The translations under genes were made by a program, and so were the position numbers. From an uncultured Gammaproteobacteria bacterium (lineage in GTDB: Bacteria; Pseudomonadota; Gammaproteobacteria; Pseudomonadales; Azotimanducaceae_A): a DNA stretch of 17,126 nt. Within the stretch, counting starts at the first letter, position 1. Each line of letters begins with the position of its first letter. Shown in pieces: positions 99 through 12,783 of the stretch. The notes under the pieces were generated by a model. That model saw nothing but the letters and a program-made list of their open reading frames with translations, made no database searches and was not told the origin of the DNA. The DNA is taken from NCBI GenBank assembly GCA_913041025.1, contig CAJWGQ010000044.1:1-17126 (forward strand), in the 5' to 3' direction.

Positions 99-1235
99 TC
101 AGTCAGACCCAACCAAAAACTCTCGAATTTCTGCCATTCGCTCCGCGGTATCTTCCTCACCTAACCGAATTAGGAGATCAATGTAATCCTTTTCAAAAAT
201 GACCATCGAAAGCGCATCGGCACTCCTGCGGTCTTTCCCTGCAAGCCCCCTCTCTAGATATCTAAACAGTTTTGGTAGGGTAAATTCATGCTCCGAGGCG
301 AGTTTACCGAGGTCTTGCTGAGGTCTTAAAACCATCACTTCCACACGCCGAAAATCATTTGCTTCAGTCTGATTTGCCACACCCAGCAATCGATTAATTC
401 GATTCATCTGTAACGCATCATAATCCAATAAATCCAGAAATATTGAATTCAAAAGAACTCCGGCAACCTGTCCGGGAGACGGGTATTCTTCAACTATTTT
501 TGGACTCTCCAAATCAGGTATTACTCTCGGTGAAACCGCTAAAATCTTACTGGCTCCTAGATGCATCGCCGGCGACAAAGGCGCATTGAGCCGAATACCG
601 CCGTCTCCATACCAGACATCATCAACGCTCACTGCTGGAAAAAAAAACGGTAATGCTGAGGAAGCCATGACATGCTTTATGGATAATTTAGTAGCTTTGG
701 CTTTGATTTGACTCCGATTCCAAATATTTTGCCCAGCGCCCTGGACCCAAGCCACCGAATGTCCTGAAGAATACTCAGTACCAATAACGGCTATTGCATC
801 CAGCACTTGAGATTGAATATTTTCATCAATTCCTTGTAAAACCAGGCTTTGATGCTCGAGCACCTTTTTCAAAAAATCCTCTAAAGGCTGATTGTCGACC
901 ATCCCTCTCAGATTATTCGCACCTAAACGTCCTCCCGTTAAAAATCGACCGATCACGAGAAAAATTCTCTGCAAAATTCGGCGTAAATCGGTGTGATACA
1001 CCTTTCTCGTTTCAAGCTGAAGCCAGGTTTCGATCAAGGAATTTACAGCGCTTGACCACTGTCCTTGATAAGAGGCCAGGTAGACCGCATTGATCGCGCC
1101 GGCAGATACACCAGTTATGATTTTTGGACGATACTCAGGGATTTCTCTCGCAATCTGACGAAGGCATCCCACCTGATAGGCAGCACGTGCACCCCCACCC
1201 GAGAGCACCAAAGCGTTGCGGTCTTCGGAATTCAA
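99..1235 (-). CDS. Patatin-like phospholipase family protein
   Basis: Predicted serine lipid acyl hydrolase of 378 aa. Seen in the protein: the oxyanion-hole glycine loop LSGGGAR (residues 11-17), the nucleophile elbow G-V-S-A-G (42-46, Ser44) and the second catalytic residue in the D-G-G motif (Asp211). Together these give the Ser-Asp dyad of patatins. No signal peptide or membrane span is evident, so a cytosolic or membrane-surface enzyme is likely. The C-terminal third is helical and charged, as in bacterial RssA/YlbK-like patatins with an extra domain. The start is TTG at 1235-1233. It shares the four bases TTGA with the stop of the upstream LLM oxidoreductase gene, implying translational coupling. 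The lipid substrate is unknown. Confidence 0.88.
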   Translation of the reverse strand: MNSEDRNALVLSGGGARAAYQVGCLRQIAREIPEYRPKIITGVSAGAINAVYLASYQGQWSSAVNSLIETWLQLETRKVYHTDLRRILQRIFLVIGRFLTGGRLGANNLRGMVDNQPLEDFLKKVLEHQSLVLQGIDENIQSQVLDAIAVIGTEYSSGHSVAWVQGAGQNIWNRSQIKAKATKLSIKHVMASSALPFFFPAVSVDDVWYGDGGIRLNAPLSPAMHLGASKILAVSPRVIPDLESPKIVEEYPSPGQVAGVLLNSIFLDLLDYDALQMNRINRLLGVANQTEANDFRRVEVMVLRPQQDLGKLASEHEFTLPKLFRYLERGLAGKDRRSADALSMVIFEKDYIDLLIRLGEEDTAERMAEIREFLVGSD

Positions 1236-2275
1236 TCAGTATTCCTTAAATCAACAATAATCTGTGAAAGTTCCTCTTCATCCTGCTCGCTGTCTACGGG
1301 AATGCTGACTTCGATGCGATCAAGGAGCAATCCAAAACGCTCGTGAATTTTTGATGCGAGATCATCGTATAACGCGACGATGACAATCTCTTCCAAAAGT
1401 TCATCGCTAACTAGCTCCGACATCTCGGCCCAGCGATTAGTGCGGGACAATTGATTCATTTCTTGACACAGATCCTGTAACTGAAAGACGTCAAACGCTT
1501 TAGCGTATGCAGGAGTCGATAGATAAAAGGCGAGTCGTTGCCTCGCGACCTCCTTTCGCGCAACCAGGACCTCCTCATCCTTAGCGGTTGCGATTAAAGG
1601 CTTCAGGCAGACCTCGAATCCGTCTGACTTTTTCTTGTTTATCCGAGGTAATAACACTTCCGAAATGTATCTAGAACTACAAACAGGATGTAATCTCACT
1701 CCTTCAGCGATTTCAAATGCCACTTCAAACATCCCTGGATTAACCGCGGCAACATGAATTGGTATCGGAGCAAAATCCATTGGAGATGGTGTGAATAAGG
1801 GCACGCTTAAATTTAGTTTGTAATGCTTGGATTCATATTCCAGCGGCTCCTCTTTTTGCCAGCTTTGCCATATCGCTCTAAGCGCCCCCACATAATCTTT
1901 CATCCACTGACCAGGAGGATGCCACTGCAAACCATGACGCCTGCGAATATGTCCCTTAACTTGAGATCCAATACCAAGCTCAAAGCGACCACCGCTGATT
2001 CTGTGCGCTGTCCACGCAGACTGCGCCAAAGTAAACGGGCTCCTTGCAAATGCGATGGCAACCGAAGTGCCAAGCTTAACTCTGCTGGTTTGACTTGCAG
2101 CCAGCGATAGAATTTGAAAAGGATCGTCTTTGGTCTCCTCCATTAACAACGAGTAGTAACCAAGGCGATCGACCAACTGAGCATCCGAACCAATAGAATC
2201 ATAGTCCAGCCCCCTCTCTGGAGCTTGCAACCCTGGATCTAATTTACCTAAAGGAAGTAACGTTTCGGCTTTCAA
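1232..2275 (-). CDS. LLM-class (luciferase-like) flavin/F420-dependent oxidoreductase
   Basis: Bacterial-luciferase-fold oxidoreductase, about 347 aa from the chosen start. Supporting stretches are EETKDDPF near residue 46, the TSRVKLGTSVAIAFARSP segment, and SGGRFELGIGSQ followed by the HPPGQW region; these are typical of TIGR03617-like proteins. Family members use F420H2 or FMNH2; which one is used here cannot be read from the sequence. The frame stays open to an ATG at 2353, but that start would overlap the divergent transporter gene by 9 bp and add a hydrophobic 26-residue leader foreign to the family. I prefer the TTG at 2275-2273, where the family-like beginning LKAETLLPLGKLDPG starts. 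The ribosome-binding site there is weak. The gene is cotranscribed with the downstream patatin gene. Confidence 0.82.
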   Translation of the reverse strand: MKAETLLPLGKLDPGLQAPERGLDYDSIGSDAQLVDRLGYYSLLMEETKDDPFQILSLAASQTSRVKLGTSVAIAFARSPFTLAQSAWTAHRISGGRFELGIGSQVKGHIRRRHGLQWHPPGQWMKDYVGALRAIWQSWQKEEPLEYESKHYKLNLSVPLFTPSPMDFAPIPIHVAAVNPGMFEVAFEIAEGVRLHPVCSSRYISEVLLPRINKKKSDGFEVCLKPLIATAKDEEVLVARKEVARQRLAFYLSTPAYAKAFDVFQLQDLCQEMNQLSRTNRWAEMSELVSDELLEEIVIVALYDDLASKIHERFGLLLDRIEVSIPVDSEQDEEELSQIIVDLRNTD

Positions 2276-2344
2276 CTCTCGTTGTCCCAAAATAGAACCC
2301 AACAAATATATCAGCAAACCTAGGAGATGGCTTAGAATAAGACC
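2276..2344. promoter_or_regulatory. Putative divergent promoter region between LLM oxidoreductase and transporter genes
   Basis: With the LLM start placed at 2275, a 69-bp spacer separates the two divergent genes. On the plus strand TAGAAT (2333-2338) resembles a -10 box and ends only 6 nt before the transporter ATG, which would make that transcript nearly leaderless. On the minus strand TATATT (2310-2305) could be the -10 box for the LLM-patatin operon. I see no good -35 match for either. The ten bases TTAGAATAAG around the plus-strand box recur upstream of another gene in the window (see findings). This is inference from short motifs only. Confidence 0.3.
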
Positions 2345-3628
2345 ATGTTCCAATGGTTTTCTGCTCTCAAGCCACGGGTCAATGAAGTGTTCAGACCGGG
2401 TGGCACGCTCTTTTACGGGTGGGTAATGGTCTTAGCCTGTGCAGCTATTCAATGGCTGTCTGCTGTCACCTGGATGCACTCCTATGGTGCCTACACGGTG
2501 CTCTTACAAGCCGAGTTTGGTTGGAGCATGACGATTTTGTCTCTCGCCTTTGCCTTGACTCGCCTTGAGAGTGGCCTGCTTGGACCAATTCAGGGATGGC
2601 TCGTGGACCGGTTTGGGCCGCGCAAAATATTGACGATCGGCTTGATTATTTTCGCCATCGGCTTTTTTCTCTTTAGCCAGGTCAATTCCATTCCAGTCTT
2701 TTTCTTAGCGTTCATATTGATTGCGTTGGGCAGCAGTCTTGGAGGCTGGGCGACTCTCATGGTCCCTATCGTCCATTGGTTTGATCAGCATCGAGCGAAA
2801 GCAATAGCCTGGTCACAGCTCGGTTTTTCTTTAGGGGGATTGTGCGTGCCACTAATGGCAATTGGCCTGGAAAATTTTGGCTGGCGCCATATGGGTATCA
2901 TCTCTGGTCTAGTCATCCTGATTGCAGGACTTCCACTAGTTTCGCTTATCTACCACCGTCCCTCTGATAAGGGGTTAACCGTCGACGGCTCCGATAGGAA
3001 AGACGGTGACCAGTACGAAAACGAAGACAAACCAGAAACCCGCAGTTTTACCTGGCGAGAAGCAATAAAAGAGCGTTCGTTCTGGTTGCTATCGACCGGG
3101 CATAGTCTCTCTTTATTGGCGGTGAGCTCAATGTTGGCCCACCTGATTCCGCACCTGACTAATTCACTAAACTACTCACTCCGGGACGCCAGTATTGCTT
3201 TTTCACTGATGACGGGCTTGCAGTTGATTGGAATCTTTTTGGGTGGATATCTCGGGGACAAATACAACAAAAAGAAGTTGGTTGTATTCTGCATGCTGGG
3301 TCACTTCCTCGGGTTGATGGCAATCGCGTTCGCAAGTAATTCCTATTGGGTAGTTGCCTTCGCAATCCTTCATGGAATAGCCTGGGGGATAAGAGGTCCC
3401 TTAATGGTGGCTCTGCGAGCTGATTATTTTGGTTCAAAGTTTTTCGGAACCATAATGGGATTTTCATCTCTTATTGTAATGATCGGCATGACTTTTGGGC
3501 CAATTATCTGCGGCATCCTTTACGACTATTACGGCAACTATCAGTTAGCCTTCACGCTCATGGCTTCGGCTTCTCTGCTGGGGGCTGTTTGTTTCTGGCT
3601 ATGCGAATCACCACAAAGTCAGAAGTAA
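2345..3628 (+). CDS. MFS transporter, monocarboxylate/oxalate-formate antiporter-like
   Basis: Polytopic inner-membrane transporter of 427 aa with about 12 hydrophobic spans. Seen: the MFS motif A, GWLVDRFGPRKIL, after the second span and a degenerate second copy, GGYLGDKYNKKKL, in the C-terminal half. A long hydrophilic charged loop lies between spans 6 and 7 (roughly residues 200-240). The opening FYGWVMVLACAAIQW and the spacing resemble MCT/OFA-type carriers of small organic anions. The substrate is not determined; a carboxylate is a guess from the subfamily. There is no clear Shine-Dalgarno near the ATG; AGGAGAT lies 23 nt upstream, too far to serve. The gene is divergent from the LLM-patatin pair and lies upstream, on the same strand, of the CoA-transferase operon, but 689 bp separate them. 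Confidence 0.85.
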   Translation: MFQWFSALKPRVNEVFRPGGTLFYGWVMVLACAAIQWLSAVTWMHSYGAYTVLLQAEFGWSMTILSLAFALTRLESGLLGPIQGWLVDRFGPRKILTIGLIIFAIGFFLFSQVNSIPVFFLAFILIALGSSLGGWATLMVPIVHWFDQHRAKAIAWSQLGFSLGGLCVPLMAIGLENFGWRHMGIISGLVILIAGLPLVSLIYHRPSDKGLTVDGSDRKDGDQYENEDKPETRSFTWREAIKERSFWLLSTGHSLSLLAVSSMLAHLIPHLTNSLNYSLRDASIAFSLMTGLQLIGIFLGGYLGDKYNKKKLVVFCMLGHFLGLMAIAFASNSYWVVAFAILHGIAWGIRGPLMVALRADYFGSKFFGTIMGFSSLIVMIGMTFGPIICGILYDYYGNYQLAFTLMASASLLGAVCFWLCESPQSQK

Positions 3629-3749: not shown

Positions 3750-4043
3750 ATGCCAACTTCCTGCCATCTCCAATATCTAGTGAAAGGGGTCAACGCTGAA
3801 CGCGAAGACAAATTTAGTTTGCGTCAGGAAATAGTCGACGCCCTTCCAAACGCGAGCTCAATTAATCTATTACCAGTAGTGGAAGGTTTCTCCCTAGACC
3901 TGGAGTTTGCCGACATCGAACCCTTTTCGAAAGCTAGCTTTGAACCCTACCTCGCTGAGCAAGTCCTGCTTGAACTAATCAATCGTAAGTGTCAGACCAT
4001 AGGTTCTGTTTCATTACAATTGATGCACAGTGAATTCAACTAA
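3750..4043 (+). CDS. Possible small hypothetical protein (97 aa)
   Basis: Not recognised. The ORF encodes an acidic small protein with no signal peptide, no membrane span and no cofactor motif. The middle part (about residues 37-80) has a protein-like mix of hydrophobic and charged residues, for example SINLLPVVEGFSLDLEF. An in-frame GTG at 3780 is an alternative start. Neither start has a good ribosome-binding site. In its favour, a terminator-like hairpin follows the stop by about 18 nt. It may be a real small gene, a remnant of one, or a chance frame. Confidence 0.35.
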   Translation: MPTSCHLQYLVKGVNAEREDKFSLRQEIVDALPNASSINLLPVVEGFSLDLEFADIEPFSKASFEPYLAEQVLLELINRKCQTIGSVSLQLMHSEFN

Positions 4044-4316: not shown

Positions 4317-5546
4317 ATGAATGCTCCGTTGGACGACATAACCGTAATTGAAATAGACAACTGGATGGCAGCTCCAAGCGCGGGCGCTGTACTGGCCGAT
4401 CTAGGTGCAAAAGTCATCAAAATAGAACCTTTAACAGGCGATCCTATGAGAGACATGAGCAGACCGATTAAAGGTGAAGGCTTTTCTGAAGATCTAAAAA
4501 ACTACGACTTTCAATTTGACGTGGATAATCGAGGAAAAAACTCCATTGCCATAGCTATCGACACTGACGAAGGGGCAAATATTGTTCGGCAACTGGTATC
4601 TAATGCTCATGTGTTTATGTGTAATCTTTTAATAGCAAGACAAGAAAAGTACAGCCTAGACCCACAAAGCTTGTTTAGAGAAAACTCCTCATTGGTTCAC
4701 GCAACGCTAACGGGCTACGGTACTTCTGGTCCTGACGCCATGCGCCCCGGCTACGATGTAACCGCTTTTTTTGGCAGATCCGGATTATACGACGCGCAGC
4801 GAGAGGGGGATGGCGGAATCGTTCCAATGGCACGACCGGCCCAAGGTGACCACACCACAGGACTCGCCTTCGTCGCATCGATTTTGGCTGCACTGAGGCA
4901 AGCTGAAAAAACTAAAACTGGTCAGATCGTGGAGACCTCCTTGTATGAAACGGCTGTGTGGACTCAAGCGTCCGACTACGCGGTCACTGCCGTTGACAAA
5001 GCCCCTGTGAGGAAACGGGATCGAGAACATATGTTAGCTATCAGTGCTAACCGTTTTCCATGTGGAGACGGAAAATGGATAGTGTTCAATATGATGCCGG
5101 ACGCAGCTTATTGGCCAAGAATATGTTCTGCTATAAATCTTGAGCACCTGATTGAAGACGAGCGATTTATTGATTCGAGTGCCAGATACAAATTAATGCC
5201 AGAGCTGATTGCCCTATTCGATGAGGCTCTTTCTCGCAAATCTAGAGACGAATGGGGGGGAATATTTGATAAGGCGGGCCTTATATGGGGGCCAGTCCTT
5301 TCCTTGGACGAAGTTCCTAAAGACCCTCATGCGCTCCAACTCGGTATGTTTCCAGAAATCGAACATCCCTCAATGGGTAGTTATCCTACCGTAAATATTC
5401 CAATGAGATTCGCAACATCAGACGTCAGGCCAAGGGGACCGGCACCCGAATTAGGTCAGCACACAGATTCAATTCTCGAATCTTTAGGCTTCGACAAGAC
5501 CCAATTGGATTCTTTGAAAAAAAATGGAATTGTTCTAAGCTCTTAA
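4317..5546 (+). CDS. Class III CoA-transferase (CaiB/BaiF family)
   Basis: Moves CoA from one acyl-CoA to a free carboxylic acid through an enzyme-bound anhydride. It is 409 aa, normal for the family. Seen: the N-terminal Rossmann part with VLADLGAKVIKIEPLTGDPMR (residues 25-45), the GYGTSGPDAMRPGYD segment (133-147) and the likely catalytic Asp178 in AQGDHTTG. The segment TGQIVETSLYETAVW follows, as in formyl-CoA and carnitine CoA-transferases. The substrate cannot be assigned. The ATG at 4317 has a good Shine-Dalgarno (AAAGGGA, 5 nt upstream). It is the first gene of a five-gene run; the thiolase follows after 21 nt. A formyl-CoA:oxalate role is possible, but no oxalyl-CoA decarboxylase is nearby. 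Confidence 0.9.
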   Translation: MNAPLDDITVIEIDNWMAAPSAGAVLADLGAKVIKIEPLTGDPMRDMSRPIKGEGFSEDLKNYDFQFDVDNRGKNSIAIAIDTDEGANIVRQLVSNAHVFMCNLLIARQEKYSLDPQSLFRENSSLVHATLTGYGTSGPDAMRPGYDVTAFFGRSGLYDAQREGDGGIVPMARPAQGDHTTGLAFVASILAALRQAEKTKTGQIVETSLYETAVWTQASDYAVTAVDKAPVRKRDREHMLAISANRFPCGDGKWIVFNMMPDAAYWPRICSAINLEHLIEDERFIDSSARYKLMPELIALFDEALSRKSRDEWGGIFDKAGLIWGPVLSLDEVPKDPHALQLGMFPEIEHPSMGSYPTVNIPMRFATSDVRPRGPAPELGQHTDSILESLGFDKTQLDSLKKNGIVLSS

Positions 5547-5567
5547 CACGTCAAGGAGGGAAATTAC

Positions 5568-6755
5568 ATGGAAAACATCGTTATAGTAGATTGTGTGAGA
5601 ACGGGCTTGGCCAAAGCTCATCGAGGCACCTTTAACCTAACTCGTTCTGATGATCTTGTCGCCCATTGCATCAATGCACTGCTTGAACGTAATCCTGCAG
5701 TAGACCCTGGAGCGATAGAGGATGTGATCTTAGGCTGCGGTCGACAGGTTGGAGAGCAATCGGCTAATGTCGCTAGACACGCAGTCGCATTATCAAAACT
5801 GCCTATCACTGTACCAGCGACTACCATCAGTCGAGCATGCTCCTCTGGTCTTAATTCGATTGCTTTTGCTGCGAATCAGCTTGCAAGCGGATGCTCTGAA
5901 ATAATGTTAGCTGGCGGTGTTGAGTCTATTACTGGTTTGGACAGAGGAAATCCCGGGGAACACGCGGAAAATCCAATATTAATGGAGCAGAAACCCGACA
6001 TCTTCATGGCCATGGGTAATACAGCAGAAGTGGTCGCTAGACGTTACCAAGTGAGCCGCGAGGCGCAAGATTTGTATGCTCTCCAAAGTCAACAACGTTA
6101 CGCAGCCGCTGAAGAAAAAGGGTTTATTCAAGAGGAAATAGTCCCTATGGAGGTCTCCTGGAGCAAAATCGTCGACAAACAAACCAAGGAAACACAAATA
6201 GTCGAAGGCATCGTTGATCGAGACGAATGCAATCGTCCGGGTACGACTCTGGAAGGCCTTAACAAACTAGGCCCAGCATTCGAAGAGGATGGCTCCGTGA
6301 CAGCTGGAAACGCATCACAATTATCAGATGGAGCCGCACTTGCTCTGCTTATGACCGAGAAGAAAGCAGAGAAGCTGGGGTTAGATATTATGGGTTATTT
6401 CAGAGGGTTTACCGTGGCAGGTTGCGAGCCTGACGAAATGGGTATAGGACCAGTTTTCGCGATACCCAAACTCTTGGATTACCTCGGGCTCACTCTAAAC
6501 GATATCGACCTAGTTGAACTTAACGAGGCCTTCGCAAGCCAATGCCTCTATTGTAGAGACCGATTGGGTATTGAGAATGAAATTTATAACGTCAATGGGG
6601 GCTCAATCGCTATAGGCCATCCATTTGGTATGACTGGAGCAAGACTAACCGGTTCAGTACTCAGGGAACTGAAGCGCAGGAACCAGCGCTATGGAATAGT
6701 TTCAATGTGTATTGGTAAAGGGATGGGTGCGGCTGGATTATTTGAAGCAGCTTGA
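5568..6755 (+). CDS. Thiolase (acetyl-CoA C-acyltransferase family)
   Basis: Condenses or cleaves 3-ketoacyl-CoA with CoA. It is 395 aa, the usual length. All catalytic elements are visible: the nucleophile Cys91 in ISRACSSG, the NEAFA motif (319-323), His351 in GHPFGMTGAR, and the second Cys381 in SMCIGKGMGAAG. The last motif has Lys384 where Gly is usual. The strong Shine-Dalgarno AAGGAGGG (5553-5560) is 7 nt before the ATG, so this is likely a highly translated member of the run. Placed after a CoA-transferase, it suggests breakdown of an acyl-CoA by thiolysis, though the biosynthetic direction cannot be excluded. Confidence 0.93.
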   Translation: MENIVIVDCVRTGLAKAHRGTFNLTRSDDLVAHCINALLERNPAVDPGAIEDVILGCGRQVGEQSANVARHAVALSKLPITVPATTISRACSSGLNSIAFAANQLASGCSEIMLAGGVESITGLDRGNPGEHAENPILMEQKPDIFMAMGNTAEVVARRYQVSREAQDLYALQSQQRYAAAEEKGFIQEEIVPMEVSWSKIVDKQTKETQIVEGIVDRDECNRPGTTLEGLNKLGPAFEEDGSVTAGNASQLSDGAALALLMTEKKAEKLGLDIMGYFRGFTVAGCEPDEMGIGPVFAIPKLLDYLGLTLNDIDLVELNEAFASQCLYCRDRLGIENEIYNVNGGSIAIGHPFGMTGARLTGSVLRELKRRNQRYGIVSMCIGKGMGAAGLFEAA

Positions 6756-6801
6756 CCTCGGCGAGAGAAAGAACAACCAAAACCAATTAAAGAAGGCGAT
6801 G

Positions 6802-8019
6802 ATGAACAATAGACGGAATTTCCTGAAAGCAGGCCTACTCGCGACAGCGGCAGTGGGCTTGCCGAGCGGTCAATCGGAGGCTAAAACATTTCAAGGGGAA
6901 GTTAAGTCCTATCGACGTCTTGGACGGACTAACCTTGAGATTTCAGACATTAGTTTTGGTACCAGTCGCTTGCGAACCGGTGAAGAGCACTTGATTGAAC
7001 ATGCGATAGATCGTGGAGTGAATTACTTTGATTCTGCAGAGGGTTATACGAGGGGCCAAGCAGAAAAGGTCTTGGGTAACGCGCTCAAGGGGAAACGAGA
7101 CAAGGTTTACTTAGTCTCTAAAACTATGATCGATGCTAATACCAGCGAGTCGGAGCTGATGACAAGACTAGAGGGATCTCTCAAGAGTCTGCAAACTGAC
7201 TACGTCGACATTTATATGAATCATGCAGTTAATGATGTCGATGTCGTCGCCAATCCCGAATGGCAATCTTTTATTGAAACAGCGAAACGACAAGGGAAAG
7301 TCCGATTCACTGGGATATCAGGTCACGGAGGATATCTAGTTGACTGCGTAAATTATGCACTAGACCATGACATGATCGATCTCATGCTTACCGCGTACAA
7401 CTTTGGACAGGATCCGAAATTCTACGAAGGGCTTACTAGGCGATTAGATTGGATAGCTACACAAGAGGAACTTCCCAAAGCAATAAGCCGAGCCAAAAGC
7501 ATGGATGTAGGCGTAGTTGCAATGAAAACTCTCATGGGGGCCCGCCTTAACGATATGCGTCCCTACGAAAAAGATGGATCAACCTATGCTCAGGCTGCCT
7601 TCAAATGGGTTTTATCAAATCCGGAAGTAGACGCACTTGTTATTACTATGAAATCCATTGAAGAAATTAACGAATTTCTTGATGCCTCAGGTAAGCAAGA
7701 AATATCAACAATTGATAATCATCTTCTTAAACAATACGCGAAACTTAATGGAATGAGTTACTGCAAGCAGGTCTGCAATAGCTGCGAAGGCGCTTGTCCA
7801 GCACAAGTCCCCATAGCCGACGTTATGCGGACTAGGATGTACGCAATAGATTACAAAGATCTCGAATTTGCCAAGGACGAATATGCGTTGCTCGGAGACG
7901 CAGCAAGTAGTTGTCTGACTTGTTCCGGCCAGCCGTGCCAGAATGCCTGCCCAAAAGGCATCGAAATTAGCAAATGGTGTGCACCGACCCATCGAATGCT
8001 TAGCCGACAGATTGCTTAA
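6802..8019 (+). CDS. Tat-exported aldo/keto reductase with C-terminal Fe-S (ferredoxin-like) domain
   Basis: 405 aa from the chosen start. Residues 1-28 look like a Tat signal peptide: twin-arginine motif RRNFLKA (4-10), a hydrophobic stretch, then an A-type cleavage region near QSEA. The aldo/keto reductase barrel follows, with Asp77, Tyr82, Lys107 and His141 as the expected tetrad. At the C-terminus are two cysteine groups, C321/C325/C328/C332-Pro and C371/C374/C379/C383-Pro, as for two [4Fe-4S] clusters; the architecture resembles COG1453-type predicted oxidoreductases. The frame is open back to 6712 inside the thiolase gene, but GAAGG (6792-6796) and the signal peptide place the start at 6802 (or the adjacent ATG, 6799). 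Larger Fe-S proteins made in the cytosol and exported folded use Tat, so periplasmic location is plausible. Substrate and electron partner are unknown. Confidence 0.87.
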   Translation: MNNRRNFLKAGLLATAAVGLPSGQSEAKTFQGEVKSYRRLGRTNLEISDISFGTSRLRTGEEHLIEHAIDRGVNYFDSAEGYTRGQAEKVLGNALKGKRDKVYLVSKTMIDANTSESELMTRLEGSLKSLQTDYVDIYMNHAVNDVDVVANPEWQSFIETAKRQGKVRFTGISGHGGYLVDCVNYALDHDMIDLMLTAYNFGQDPKFYEGLTRRLDWIATQEELPKAISRAKSMDVGVVAMKTLMGARLNDMRPYEKDGSTYAQAAFKWVLSNPEVDALVITMKSIEEINEFLDASGKQEISTIDNHLLKQYAKLNGMSYCKQVCNSCEGACPAQVPIADVMRTRMYAIDYKDLEFAKDEYALLGDAASSCLTCSGQPCQNACPKGIEISKWCAPTHRMLSRQIA

Positions 8020-8760
8020 GTGAACCGAGAAGAAATACTCGACGCGTTCAAAGACGGACGTATCGATCTGAAAGAAACACTCTCTCAAATCGACCAGAGC
8101 TACTATCAAAATGTGGGGCATACTACAGTCGACCTGGATCGGGAAGCCAGAACGGGTGCACCAGAGGTCGTTTTTGGTTCCGGTAAGACCGCCAAGCAAA
8201 TTATCGAGATCGTTGACGTTTTGCTGTCAAAGGAGATCAATACGCTGGTCACAAGAATCGACGAAAAAAAATATTCAGATCTATCAGCGTCTCTGCCTAA
8301 GCATGCAGTCTACTCTTCCGACGCTCAACTTTTGAGCATCAAAATGAAACAGATAGAGCTTACAGAATCGTTCGTAGGGGTCGTTTCAGCAGGGACCTCA
8401 GACCACAAAATTGCTCAAGAGGCAGCTTTGACTGCAGAGTTTTTTGGAAGCAAGACGCTACAAATAACCGACGTCGGAGTCGCTGGTTTACACAGGCTAC
8501 TAACCAGAATAGACGAAATAAAGAAGGCAAAGGTTGTTGTTGTCGTCGCAGGTATGGAGGGCGCACTTCCGAGTGTAGTCGGAGGCCTCGTCAAAAGCCC
8601 AGTGATAGCAGTCCCTACTAGCGTCGGTTACGGAGCCGCATTTGAAGGGGTTGCGGCGCTACTAGGCATGCTAACAAGCTGTGCTTCTGGTATTTCAGTG
8701 GTGAATATTGATAATGGTTTTGGTGCTGGCTATTTGGCCAACATGATCAACCAGATTTGA
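8020..8760 (+). CDS. larB: Nickel-pincer cofactor biosynthesis protein LarB (NaAD carboxylase/hydrolase)
   Basis: LarB carboxylates the pyridinium ring of nicotinic acid adenine dinucleotide and cleaves the phosphoanhydride, the first step to the nickel-pincer nucleotide. It is 246 aa, the normal size. Seen: a variable N-terminal helical part; the AIR-carboxylase-like (PurE-type) domain with SAGTSD (123-128), VVAGMEGALPSVVGGLV (175-191) and VPTSVGYG (198-205); and Cys221 in LTSCASG, which matches the cysteine shown to bind substrate covalently in Lactobacillus LarB. NIDNGFGAG follows. The GTG start directly abuts the TAA of the preceding reductase gene and has no clear Shine-Dalgarno, so translation is probably coupled to that gene. 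Confidence 0.93.
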   Translation: MNREEILDAFKDGRIDLKETLSQIDQSYYQNVGHTTVDLDREARTGAPEVVFGSGKTAKQIIEIVDVLLSKEINTLVTRIDEKKYSDLSASLPKHAVYSSDAQLLSIKMKQIELTESFVGVVSAGTSDHKIAQEAALTAEFFGSKTLQITDVGVAGLHRLLTRIDEIKKAKVVVVVAGMEGALPSVVGGLVKSPVIAVPTSVGYGAAFEGVAALLGMLTSCASGISVVNIDNGFGAGYLANMINQI

Positions 8761-8769
8761 ACTACCGTC

Positions 8770-9618
8770 ATGAACGAACAAATATCAGAAAAATACCTAT
8801 CTCTTAAATCGATTATTAATCGGTATGACAGCGCGGTGGTCGCCTTTTCAGGGGGAATCGATAGCTCCCTGGTCGCTTATGTGGCTGGAGAGGTACTGGG
8901 AAATAATGCCCTGGCAGTCACCTCGGGATCAGCCAGTCTGAAGCGATCGGACCTTCAACTAGCAGAAACACTCGGTAAAGATTGGAATCTATCGCACGAA
9001 ATCATAGTCACAGACGAGTTGAGCAAACCCGATTACCGGCGAAACCCAGTCGACCGCTGCTTTCACTGCAAAACCTCGCTCTACACCTCACTGGATGTCA
9101 TTTGTAAAGAAAGAGGCATAGACGTTATTTTTAACGGGACAAACCTTGATGATCTAGGAGACCATCGACCAGGACTCATGGCCGCCGACAATTATCAAGT
9201 CTGCTCGCCTTTGGTCGAGGCCGGCTTTCACAAATCTGACGTCAGGCAACTAGCTAATGAACTGGGTTTAAAAAATGCCGATAAGCCTCAGTCCGCTTGT
9301 TTATCGAGCCGTTTCCCTTATGGCACATCAATCGATGAACAACTTCTATCACAAGTGGAACAAGCAGAGACAGTACTCGAATCCTTAGGTTTTACCCAGT
9401 TTCGAGTTCGGCATCATGGAGATCTAGCAAGGATAGAGGTAACCGAAAAAGAGCTCGAAAAAGCTATGGATCATCGACTACACATCAACGAGGCTCTAGG
9501 CGATCTTGGTTATCGATACATTACCTTGGATATGATCGGATTTCGTTCAGGTTCTCTCAATGAAGGACTTAAAAAAGAGCAGATACAGGTCGTCAATATT
9601 CACAACCCGGAGAATTAG
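8770..9618 (+). CDS. larE: ATP-dependent sacrificial sulfur transferase LarE
   Basis: LarE adenylates the carboxyl groups of pyridinium-3,5-biscarboxylate mononucleotide and converts them to thiocarboxylates, the second stage of nickel-pincer nucleotide synthesis. It is 282 aa, typical. Seen: the N-type ATP-pyrophosphatase P-loop FSGGIDSS (26-33), the DRCFHCK segment (95-101), and Cys177 in SACLSSRFPYG, the position of the cysteine that gives up its sulfur in Lactobacillus LarE. No cysteines follow Cys177, so this looks like the sacrificial type rather than the [4Fe-4S]-cluster type with extra cysteines. It starts 9 nt after larB without an obvious Shine-Dalgarno. larC, the nickel-inserting enzyme, is not in the window. 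Confidence 0.94.
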   Translation: MNEQISEKYLSLKSIINRYDSAVVAFSGGIDSSLVAYVAGEVLGNNALAVTSGSASLKRSDLQLAETLGKDWNLSHEIIVTDELSKPDYRRNPVDRCFHCKTSLYTSLDVICKERGIDVIFNGTNLDDLGDHRPGLMAADNYQVCSPLVEAGFHKSDVRQLANELGLKNADKPQSACLSSRFPYGTSIDEQLLSQVEQAETVLESLGFTQFRVRHHGDLARIEVTEKELEKAMDHRLHINEALGDLGYRYITLDMIGFRSGSLNEGLKKEQIQVVNIHNPEN

Positions 9619-9650: not shown

Positions 9651-10526
9651 CTATTGTCGATAGTAAGATTTTAGCTGTCGGTCCTGCCTACTCGTATCCG
9701 ACTTATTTCCAACCCTGGCCCATGGCTTGTACTTCGGAGACGCTGTTCCCTCTGGCCTGTCTCCCATTATAGTTACCCTATGGATTATTCGCTCACCTTC
9801 GAAGTCATTTAACACCATGTGTTGCGTACATCGGTTATCCCAGATCCCGATCGTGCCCGCGGTCCAACCGTATCTGACCGTAAATCGGGGGTTTTGGACC
9901 CAACGGGTCAGATAGCTCAAAAGCATTTCGCTTTCCGATGCATTCATCTCAACAATACGACGAGTAAAGTGCTCATTTACATACAAAGTCTTCTGACCTG
10001 TTTCCGGATGGACCCTAATCACAGGATGCACCATCATTTTGTCCGTTCGATTGTGAGGCAACGCGTCATGTAGAGCGGTAATCGACTCACAAAGATCTTT
10101 CATTGGTTCAGATAGTTCTTCATAAGCCTGGCATAGGTTGGTCCACATGGTGTCTCCGCCGACCTCGGGACAGGTTACCATGTGAAGGACTGACATAATC
10201 GAAGGCTCTTCCATAAAGGTAAGGTCTGTATGCCATTCGTCCGCAATTCCACCTTTGGATGCTGCTAGCTCAAATACTTTATCGTGCTCGGTATAGGGGT
10301 TTTTTAAATTTGGGTGCGACTCGATCACCCCAAAGTGACTGCCCAACTCAACATGTTGATCCACCGTAATTGTCTGACCCGGAAAAAAAAGAACTTTGTG
10401 TTGCGACAACAATCCCTTAATACAATCCGCTTCTTCGGCGTTTATTTTGGAGAGGTCAGCATTCAATACCTCAGCCCCTAGCGACGCGGCAACTTTTCTT
10501 ACTTGCCAAGACTCAGTTCGACTCAA
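9651..10526 (-). CDS. TauD/TfdA-family Fe(II)/2-oxoglutarate-dependent dioxygenase
   Basis: Predicted non-haem iron oxygenase that couples 2-oxoglutarate decarboxylation to hydroxylation of a small substrate; 291 aa, usual length. The metal-binding residues are His99 and Asp101 in EWHTDLTF and His249 in IIHRVTIMGDRP. The WDNRCTQH segment (229-236) is also typical. An arginine about 11 residues after the distal His, which binds 2-oxoglutarate in TauD, is not obvious; Arg250 or Arg257 may fill this role. The start is TTG at 10526-10524, with a good Shine-Dalgarno AAGGGGA 5 nt upstream. It lies 25 nt downstream of an aldo/keto reductase gene on the same strand, so the two likely form an operon, and it is convergent with larE (32-nt gap). 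Taurine or 2,4-D should not be assumed as the substrate. Confidence 0.87.
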   Translation of the reverse strand: MSRTESWQVRKVAASLGAEVLNADLSKINAEEADCIKGLLSQHKVLFFPGQTITVDQHVELGSHFGVIESHPNLKNPYTEHDKVFELAASKGGIADEWHTDLTFMEEPSIMSVLHMVTCPEVGGDTMWTNLCQAYEELSEPMKDLCESITALHDALPHNRTDKMMVHPVIRVHPETGQKTLYVNEHFTRRIVEMNASESEMLLSYLTRWVQNPRFTVRYGWTAGTIGIWDNRCTQHMVLNDFEGERIIHRVTIMGDRPEGTASPKYKPWARVGNKSDTSRQDRQLKSYYRQ

Positions 10527-10551: not shown

Positions 10552-11433
10552 CTATACATCATCCGATATTCCGCGAACAAACAGAGGCTCCATGCCCAGC
10601 TCTCTATAATCATCTTGCATCTGTTCACCACTCGGTTCAAGAACCGGTTCGGCGGCTGCACTTAACAAAACTTCCAACAACGTCGCATCACTGGACGAAT
10701 TTAAAAACAAACCGTCCACACTCAAGGTATAGTCCACCGCTCTTTTTAATGGATGCTTATCGGTAATAGGCCTATACCAACTGTATCGCTTCTCCTTGTC
10801 ATCCTGACCCCAGCGTCTCAAAGCGATCGACTTGATCGTTTGAATAGCTACCCCCTTGCTTCTAGCAAGCGAATAAAGGTTTTCAAAATCATTTTTATAC
10901 TGTTCCTGGCTCATCATGGAAAAATTGTGAGGTAATAGTACCGAGTCAAAATCGTAGGTCTGCAAACTCTGTACGTGCATGCTGGCAGCAAACGTACCAT
11001 GCCCCGTAACCCCAATATTATTAACCAGCCCCTCTTCCTTAGCCTCAATTAAGCCCTCTAGAGCCCCATCCGATCCCATTGCCACATTCCATTCGTTCTG
11101 CTTGGTCAAATTATGCAATTGGATTAAGTCGACTTTGTCCACCCGCATTCGTTCCAGAGATCGCTTCAACTGGTCTTTAGCCTCAGTCTTGGTTCGCAGC
11201 CCTGTCTTAGTCGCCAAAAAGAAATCGGATCGTCTACTTTCCAATATCGGACCAAGTCGAATTTCTGCATCCCCATAACTTGCCGCCACATCAATATGAT
11301 TGATTCCAAACTTATCAAGCACCTCAAAAGTCGACTCCGCCCGATCTTGAGACATCGCTCCCAGAGCCGCAGCGCCAAAAATTACCCTCGAGCTCTGGTG
11401 ACCAGTCTTACCAAACAATTGTTTTTCTATCAT
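10552..11433 (-). CDS. Aldo/keto reductase (cytosolic)
   Basis: NAD(P)H-dependent carbonyl/alcohol oxidoreductase of the (beta/alpha)8 aldo/keto reductase family, 293 aa. The tetrad is visible: Asp48 and Tyr53 in HIDVAASYG, Lys76 in LATKTGL, His107 in LIQLHNL. There is no signal peptide and no Fe-S domain, unlike the reductase at 6802. The ATG at 11433 has AAGG 8 nt upstream. It is the first gene of a pair with the TauD-like dioxygenase and diverges from the NudC gene. The substrate is unknown; a role in the same pathway as the dioxygenase is an inference from spacing alone. Confidence 0.88.
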   Translation of the reverse strand: MIEKQLFGKTGHQSSRVIFGAAALGAMSQDRAESTFEVLDKFGINHIDVAASYGDAEIRLGPILESRRSDFFLATKTGLRTKTEAKDQLKRSLERMRVDKVDLIQLHNLTKQNEWNVAMGSDGALEGLIEAKEEGLVNNIGVTGHGTFAASMHVQSLQTYDFDSVLLPHNFSMMSQEQYKNDFENLYSLARSKGVAIQTIKSIALRRWGQDDKEKRYSWYRPITDKHPLKRAVDYTLSVDGLFLNSSSDATLLEVLLSAAAEPVLEPSGEQMQDDYRELGMEPLFVRGISDDV

Positions 11434-11495: not shown

Positions 11496-12400
11496 TGTTT
11501 TCTCAAGATCATACTTTTGCAGGCAATCCTCTAGATAGAGCGGAATATATCCGCAGAGACGAAGAAGCGATCCAAGAATTAATCAAATCCAAAGAAGGAA
11601 AATATTTGGTCTTTGATCGTTTAAAGGTGCATGTCGACGAAGAAGGTCAGCTAAAATGGCTCAACCAGACCGATCTACCGTCGCTCCCACAGCAACCAGC
11701 TTTGCTAGGCATCGATGACGATAAACCACATTTCGCCCTAGATCTTTCCGATACTCCCTGGGTTGGAGATAAACAGTTCGCTGACTGCCGGACGACAGCT
11801 ATGCATATAAGCGGCCCTGAGACAGGAATACTCGCGCAGGCCCGTTCGCAACTGGATTGGCATAGAAAGAACCGGTTCTGCGCCGTATGTGGTTCAAAAA
11901 ACCGCAAAGAGAGAGGAGGGCAGGTTCTCCGCTGCACAGGCTGTGAGAGACACATTTTTCCGCGCACTGATCCCGTGGTCATCATGCTTATTATTGACGC
12001 TTCTAATGAAGAAAGGTGTCTATTGGGCCAGGGCAAAGGACGAATGGTAAAGAGCAACTTTTACTCGGCACTTGCCGGGTTTATCGATCAAGGAGAATCA
12101 ATCGAAGAGGCCGTCAGACGCGAGGTTCATGAAGAATCTCAAGTTAAGGTAGGTCGAGTTCAATATCACTCTTCTCAACCTTGGCCCTTTCCTTCCTCAC
12201 TGATGATCGGATGTCATGGCTTGGCGGACTCCACAGAAATTGTTGTTAACTCATCAGAAATGGCCAATGTTGCCTGGTTTTCTAAAGAAGAAGTCATCAC
12301 CTCACTCAACGGCCAACACCCCGAATTAGCAGTTCCAGGCAAAATGGCGATAGCCCATCACCTGATTAAGTCTTGGACAGAAGACAAGGTTCAATTTTGA
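11495..12400 (+). CDS. nudC: NADH pyrophosphatase / NAD-cap hydrolase (NudC-type Nudix hydrolase)
   Basis: Hydrolyses NADH (and, in E. coli, removes NAD caps from RNA). About 301 aa from the chosen start. Domain order: Nudix-associated N-terminal region; zinc ribbon Cys129/Cys132/Cys147/Cys150; Nudix box at about 195-217 (GFIDQGE...REVHEESQV); then SQPWPFPSS (227-235), the NudC signature. In the Nudix box the usual Gly near the end is Gln216. The frame is open back to TTG 11456, but the family-like beginning (FAGNPLDRA) favours the GTG at 11495. That start has no Shine-Dalgarno, so the start is uncertain. The stop overlaps the TTG start of the next gene by four bases. Confidence 0.88.
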   Translation: MFSQDHTFAGNPLDRAEYIRRDEEAIQELIKSKEGKYLVFDRLKVHVDEEGQLKWLNQTDLPSLPQQPALLGIDDDKPHFALDLSDTPWVGDKQFADCRTTAMHISGPETGILAQARSQLDWHRKNRFCAVCGSKNRKERGGQVLRCTGCERHIFPRTDPVVIMLIIDASNEERCLLGQGKGRMVKSNFYSALAGFIDQGESIEEAVRREVHEESQVKVGRVQYHSSQPWPFPSSLMIGCHGLADSTEIVVNSSEMANVAWFSKEEVITSLNGQHPELAVPGKMAIAHHLIKSWTEDKVQF

Positions 12401-12783
12401 ATAGTTTGGTTTGTTGGAATTGCGGCTCTTCGCTAAGCGACGTGCCGCTACCGATCAGCAGACACAGTCAGTGTTCTGGCTGCTTCAACGACCTCCACTG
12501 CTGTCGTCTTTGTAAACATAACGACCCTGAACGTACGACCTATTGTTTCGAAGACCGCGCAGATCCTCCCATTCAAAAAGAAAACTCTAACTTTTGTGAC
12601 TATTTCAGACCAAGTTCGAACGCCTTCAATAGTGGAAGAGCAATAAAAAGCTCAGACTCCAGAGCCAAACTCGAGTCTCTTTTTGGTCAAGGTGAAGAAG
12701 AAGATACCATCTCTTCTGATAATGATTCCGTCAAATCAAAGGAAGACGAGACCAAGAAAGCTTTGAACGATCTATTCAAATAG
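12397..12783 (+). CDS. Small Cys-rich putative zinc-binding protein
   Basis: Not assigned to a named function. From TTG 12397 the product is 128 aa. The N-terminal half carries paired cysteines suited to zinc: CWNC, CSGC, CCRLC and single cysteines in TTYCFED and NFCDYF. The C-terminal half is acidic and low in complexity (GEEEDTISSDNDS) and ends in a short helix, KKALNDLFK. As I recall, similar small proteins beginning with C-x-x-C-G and ending the Cys-rich part with NFCDYF are common as uncharacterised ORFs in gammaproteobacteria. The TTG start shares TTGA with the NudC stop, so the two are likely translated together. An upstream in-frame ATG (12373) lies inside nudC and is less likely. Confidence 0.75.
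   Translation: MNSLVCWNCGSSLSDVPLPISRHSQCSGCFNDLHCCRLCKHNDPERTTYCFEDRADPPIQKENSNFCDYFRPSSNAFNSGRAIKSSDSRAKLESLFGQGEEEDTISSDNDSVKSKEDETKKALNDLFK

Follow-up and report, generated by a model that had tools for sequence, protein, structure and literature searches.

A Tat-signal aldo/keto-reductase-like protein that was found only with nickel-pincer biosynthesis genes in related genomes is a candidate cofactor client in a gammaproteobacterial lineage without detectable LarA

Lactate racemase operons (larA-larB-larC-larE) are the closest described systems to the gene cluster examined here. Their cofactor, the nickel-pincer nucleotide (NPN), is described in PMC11770544 and PMC11796402 as an enzyme-bound, hydride-carrying pyridinium nucleotide. 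As stated in PMC11796402, larB, larE, and larC occur without larA in about 15% of surveyed genomes, and the cyanobacterial lar genes do make NPN, the client there being given as an open question. We analyzed a window, that is, the whole stretch of 17,126 nucleotides of contig CAJWGQ010000044.1 from an uncultured marine Gammaproteobacteria bacterium, in which five open reading frames (ORFs) on the plus strand encode a CaiB/BaiF CoA-transferase (hereafter CaiB), a thiolase, an aldo/keto-reductase-like protein with a twin-arginine translocation (Tat) signal (hereafter AKR1), LarB, and LarE, with intergenic gaps of 21, 46, 0, and 9 nt. As in lactate racemase operons, LarB and LarE score over curated cut-offs, and LarC is encoded elsewhere in the genome of the nearest relative (G001). 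In contrast to those operons, no LarA was found, larC lies at another locus, and the partners are CaiB, the thiolase, and the Tat-signal reductase. G037 and G131, which share the order of the window's relatives, have LarA beside LarE and LarC, unlike the window operon. The retention of NPN genes without LarA is shared with LarA-less NPN makers such as the cyanobacteria described in PMC11796402, whereas here a lar-linked, putatively exported reductase is named as the candidate client. In a set of 206 related genomes, every AKR1 found was accompanied by genes for this rare cofactor and in most cases immediately preceded them, which makes AKR1 a directly bench-testable candidate for the NPN client in LarA-less bacteria.

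The contig closest to the window, which holds the single locus obtained when genome contigs were scanned with AKR1, is PBUF01000011.1 (L001; Gammaproteobacteria bacterium isolate RS465, genome G001), in which the reductase is 95% identical. LarC of G001 is split across two contig ends and immediately follows the gene for another aldo/keto reductase with a Tat signal (AKR2), and a profile search of G001 gave no match to Lar_N, the LarA domain. We searched 206 genomes of the family of G001 and obtained strong LarB matches in 138 genomes, LarC in 138, both in 131, and either in 145. Genomes were counted as lar+ when a LarB match had an E value below about 1e-15 or a LarC match was over the cut-off; LarB matches occurred in 154 genomes, from which 16 with only weak PurE-like ones were dropped. 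Where candidates were many, the protein searches scored the best 8 to 10 first-look candidates per genome. LarA, searched for with the PF09861 (Lar_N) domain only, was found in 59 of the 206 genomes (50 lar+ and 9 lar-). In the sub-clade of 40 genomes (G281-G317 with G001, G040, and G180, assuming that handle numbers follow taxonomy), LarB was found in 34 genomes, LarC in 32, and both in 28, and the Lar_N search matched none of the 40. These results indicate that the NPN pathway is retained in the sub-clade without LarA, its only known client family. The original prediction had offered, as users of the cofactor, a LarA homologue encoded elsewhere or another enzyme. Because LarA is undetected both in the sub-clade and in G001, a non-LarA user is needed; the former proposal is unlikely and the latter is supported. 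It had also placed neither LarA nor LarC in the window, in agreement with the lack of a match to either among the 16 window proteins (Pfam for all, NCBIfam for ten). Nine family genomes have a Lar_N match without strong LarB or LarC (G240, G273, G274, G275, G324, G325, G326, G328, and G379); these may be incomplete assemblies or may receive the cofactor from elsewhere.

AKR1 was present in 110 of the 206 family genomes. All 110 carriers are lar+, whereas AKR1 was found in 0 of the 61 lar- genomes (Fisher p = 1.4e-27, with kinship ignored); 111 genomes matched at 1e-40, and G345, whose sole match is a paralogue, was omitted from the carriers. Of the 110 copies, 94 precede larB or larC in the same orientation at a distance of at most 2.5 kb, and 82 do so within 150 bp. 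The other 16 copies, which are not adjacent to lar genes in the assembly, are also in lar+ genomes, several of them close kin. Outside the sub-clade, AKR1 usually directly precedes larC or larB.

We compared the origins of LarC in these operons using a tree of 45 of the 48 loci tried, which was built by a quick method with no bootstrap. A type-II group (G226, G331, G244, G322, and G327; support 99) nests within a set that includes sequences from outside the family, among them one from an alphaproteobacterial plasmid (support 95), and lies away from the type-I group formed by the window's relatives. AKR1 proteins from type-I and type-II genomes, by comparison, group together in a single family that excludes the nearest paralogue (support 100). 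AKR1 was found in 27 of 29 genomes with type-II LarC, in 19 of them within 200 bp of LarC. Since members of one AKR1 family stand at the front of lar operons that differ in the ancestry of their LarC, this comparison of sequences argues for a linkage that reflects dependence on lar and not an inherited neighbourhood.

The two cofactor genes of the operon were assigned over curated cut-offs. LarB (8020..8760, plus strand, GTG start), the putative pyridinium carboxylase/hydrolase of NPN biosynthesis, scored 291.9 bits against a cut-off of 175 for NF033503, and its nearest solved structure is the P2CMN synthase 7mj0 (E 4.6e-73). LarE (8770..9618, plus strand), the putative sulfur-insertion enzyme, scored 310.2 bits against 150 for TIGR00268, with 6b2o and 5udq as the nearest solved structures (E 9.4e-50 and 3.3e-49). 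It has an SGGxDS motif at residue 27 and cysteines at 97, 100, and 177, and SGGxDS and CxxC are present in all 42 members of the LarE cluster. The SGGxDS loop and CXXC-C arrangement are shared with Thermotoga maritima LarE, whose CXXC-C cysteines are described in PMC9283937 as binding a [4Fe-4S] cluster, so that the window LarE is probably of the catalytic [4Fe-4S] type.

AKR1 (6802..8019, plus strand) scored 102.3 bits for Aldo_ket_red (PF00248; cut-off 24) and 24.8 bits for TAT_signal (PF10518; cut-off 22.7). Its start is the ATG at 6802, although the reading frame extends upstream without a stop to a TTG at 6712. The Tat motif was found in 27 of 28 orthologues; in the remaining one, a residue of the motif is masked. 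Two four-cysteine motifs are present in all 28 orthologues, and the pattern suggests a C terminus of the 4Fe-4S dicluster type. The Fer4_9 profile matched at 23.0 bits, under its cut-off of 27. An AlphaFold2 model, with a mean pLDDT of 75.2 and confidence that is high for most of the barrel and low for the C-terminal domain, matched the L-galactose dehydrogenase 7smi (Foldseek E 5.5e-17) and PA4992 (4exa and 4exb). AKR1 shares the barrel fold and the tetrad residues of the L-galactose dehydrogenase type (7smi and 8usu), and differs in the added Tat signal, in the putative two-cluster cysteine domain at the C terminus, and in one Asn: where L-galactose dehydrogenases have an E-N pair close to the end of the barrel, AKR1 has E-F/Y. 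This Asn presumably contacts adenine, and its loss is at most suggestive with regard to the cofactor. A longer paralogue of about 500 residues (L195-L203), 38-41% identical to AKR1, occurs in 15 family genomes, 15 of 15 being lar+, and sits away from the lar genes in the 9 loci fetched. A relative of AKR1 is also named outside Gammaproteobacteria (P0108, a Limisphaerales record).

We tentatively regard the operon as an NPN supply unit in a LarA-less lineage with AKR1, a non-LarA NPN user, as the main client, and our confidence in this stays somewhat below even. The further step, that AKR1 is an exported nickel-pincer dehydrogenase or epimerase outside the LarA fold in which tethered NPN replaces NAD(P), is possible and rather doubtful; AKR2 and a reductase without a Tat signal (AKR_cyt) might be further ones. 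Genomic association suggests that AKR1 is NPN-dependent; the binding of NPN by AKR1, its reaction and substrate, and the route of the electrons are inferred. NPN would be made in the cytoplasm by LarB and LarE from the operon together with LarC from the second locus seen in the nearest relative, and there the AKR1 barrel would take up NPN instead of soluble NAD(P) and fold with two iron-sulfur clusters. The loaded protein would then exit via Tat. Tat exports folded, cofactor-loaded proteins, and an exported reductase cannot rely on soluble NAD(P). Outside the inner membrane, the NPN ring of AKR1 would exchange hydride with a hydroxy-compound, and the clusters would serve as the electron outlet. 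Loaded with NPN and iron-sulfur clusters, AKR1 would be an exported enzyme equipped for hydride transfer on its own. After import, the product would be processed by the CaiB CoA-transferase and, in genomes that have it, by the thiolase. Should AKR1 prove to carry NPN, it would add a new fold to the nickel-pincer enzymes and, to our knowledge, be the first of them to be exported; otherwise, the linkage would still indicate an NPN-requiring pathway without LarA.

Several observations weigh against AKR1 as the client. AKR1 is missing from 35 of the 145 lar+ genomes; in the sub-clade it occurs in 12 of 40 genomes and is missing from 26 of the 38 that are lar+. LarA, AKR1, and AKR2 are all missing from 13 lar+ genomes, so that a further client, another role of NPN, or assembly gaps are needed to account for them; G040, G290, G309, G310, and G312 among these retain CaiB-larB-larE, and G134 has a lar locus without an adjacent CaiB. 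Among 229 genomes sampled from the class, G001 alone had AKR1 and 8 had LarC, one of which (G590) is a 21-position match, and AKR1 is thus at best an answer at the family level. Asp77, Tyr82, Lys107, and His141, which we take to be the ordinary aldo/keto reductase catalytic tetrad, are invariant in AKR1. Because of this tetrad and the resemblance of the model to NAD-dependent L-galactose dehydrogenases, AKR1 may perform ordinary NAD(P) chemistry; glucose-fructose oxidoreductase is reportedly exported via Tat with bound NADP and would be a precedent. AKR2 and AKR_cyt also cluster with lar. It is quite possible, if short of probable, that AKR1 is a pathway enzyme with an ordinary cofactor, like AKR2, AKR_cyt, and CaiB, and that a separate non-LarA NPN enzyme acts on the hydroxy acid, with these proteins catalyzing earlier or later steps. 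The 13 genomes above, including the five inspected in which CaiB-larB-larE is retained, fit this explanation, as does the recurrence of three reductase families and CaiB around lar. A partner with its own cofactor would however be expected in some lar- genomes, as is CaiB (34 genomes), whereas all AKR1 genes found were in lar+ genomes; the genes near lar, where candidates were sought, yielded no other possible client.

Two further points weigh against AKR1 as the client: linked genes drop out jointly from fragmented assemblies, and the association is not corrected for kinship. With a single family and many such assemblies, AKR1 might merely adjoin lar and be lost with it, the co-occurrence reflecting shared ancestry and assembly gaps. 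We consider this improbable, because the lar operons that follow AKR1 differ in the origin of their LarC, all 16 non-adjacent copies are still in lar+ genomes (several of them close kin), and CaiB is unassociated with lar over the same genomes. It is similarly unlikely that a LarA too divergent for the Lar_N profile to detect lies elsewhere in the genome and serves as the ordinary client. Divergent LarAs do occur in the family, five of the 59 matches being weak (E 2e-11 to 1e-7), and PF09861 was the only profile used. LarC without a Lar_N match is also seen elsewhere: of six control genomes with LarC, only Thermotoga maritima and Methanosarcina acetivorans matched Lar_N. Corynebacterium glutamicum, a LarC control without a Lar_N match, is named in PMC11770544 as carrying a LarA homologue, so the profile may miss some LarAs. 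The recovery of the weak matches nevertheless indicates that the search has reach, and none of the 40 sub-clade genomes matched at all. The original prediction had also considered a nickel-free thiocarboxylate nucleotide, made by LarB and LarE for another use. The position of larC outside the operon and the division of the sub-clade lar genes between two loci would suit such a product, but LarB and LarC occur together in 28 of the 40 sub-clade genomes and 131 of the 206 family genomes, and the presence of larC in G001 means that it need not be invoked. We hold this product, with LarC retained in the relatives, to be very improbable.

In regards to gene order, the closest contig retains the window order across its 14.6 kb. 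LarB is followed by LarE in all 20 LarB loci fetched from the sub-clade, with CaiB upstream in 18, the remaining 2 contigs ending after the thiolase; AKR1 is present in 11 of the 20 and the thiolase in 9. The five-gene order exceeds chance, as indicated by its retention in the closest contig and by these LarB-LarE and CaiB counts. The sub-clade lar genes are split over two loci, and in 20 LarC loci AKR2 lies directly upstream in 16 and a second CaiB gene lies within the stretch in 18. In G001, larC stands beside the second Tat-signal reductase without larA, and not together with larA in a separate ordinary lactate racemase locus. Seven LarC loci (L096-L099, L101, L102, and L104) have a DUF1800 gene beside AKR2-larC, followed in 6 of the 7 by a DUF1501 gene. 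In L173 (G207:C70), two larC-larB copies lie a few kilobases apart, the second larC being shorter.

The layout and gene identities of the original prediction agree with the ORF coordinates and profile searches, except that the genes, called fused in its title, are five separate adjacent ORFs. CaiB (4317..5546, plus strand), a family III CoA-transferase, scored 293.5 bits for PF02515 (CoA_transf_3; cut-off 23.3); its substrate is not assigned because the top NCBIfam match, 175.7 bits, is far under the cut-off of 750. The thiolase (5568..6755, plus strand) is of the acetyl-CoA C-acyltransferase type (TIGR01930, 419 bits, cut-off 240.55; Thiolase_N and Thiolase_C, 216.6 and 153.5 bits). The original prediction had proposed that the CoA enzymes degrade the resulting acid. 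The larBE-CoA-transferase linkage is kept in the sub-clade, but thiolase is in 9 of 20 loci and CaiB has no association with lar across the family: its carriers comprise 79 lar+ and 34 lar- genomes, for an odds ratio of 0.95 (p = 0.88), and we rejected it as the defining lar partner at this level. Among the type-II genomes, CaiB again adjoins AKR1 in 5 and LarC in one more. The emphasis shifts accordingly from the CoA enzymes to the putatively exported reductase as the lar-dependent component.

AKR2 was found in 106 lar+ and 8 lar- genomes, 6 of the latter having LarA, and the first AKR1 cysteine motif, the only one tested there, is present in 0 of 22 AKR2 cluster members; AKR2 was rejected as the sole client on these grounds. 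AKR_cyt, the second aldo/keto reductase of the window (10552..11433, minus strand; PF00248, 78.2 bits), is a recurrent lar neighbour. In a 110-genome sample it had 53 carriers (50 lar+ and 3 lar-), and for 28 of the 53 copies a LarB is no more than 3.5 kb away. AKR_cyt may be a partner or a further client.

A search of PLSDB gave no plasmid match to AKR1. LarB matched 101 plasmid records, the best matches all being below 60% identity. Seven LarB plasmids were examined among 40 listed: larB has a larA-like gene nearby in 4, adjoins an alpha-hydrolase gene in 2 roseobacter plasmids with no larA or larC annotated in the stretch, and stands alone in 1 cyanobacterial plasmid. No annotated aldo/keto reductase was found within 6 kb of larB in these 7, the PLSDB gene tables being incomplete. 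A literature search found no paper linking nickel-pincer genes with aldo/keto reductases, the term "aldo/keto" with its slash not being searchable.

The operon is flanked by further genes in the window. A TauD-family dioxygenase (9651..10526, minus strand; PF02668, 181.5 bits), with a 15-member cluster, is a recurrent larE neighbour in the sub-clade. An MFS transporter (2345..3628, plus strand; PF07690, 190.8 bits) is a possible substrate importer and scored 141.4 bits with the L-lactate MFS model, under its cut-off of 320. A 97-residue ORF (3750-4043, plus strand) without a Pfam or NCBIfam match belongs to a 15-member cluster near the operon with 44-50% identity. A cysteine-rich ORF of 136 residues (12373-12783, plus strand), which has no Pfam match, overlaps the end of a Nudix gene and belongs to a 9-member cluster. 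A luciferase-like oxidoreductase (1232-2353, minus strand) scored 314.3 bits against 278.15 for TIGR03617, an F420-dependent subfamily; use of F420 would be unusual for a gammaproteobacterium.

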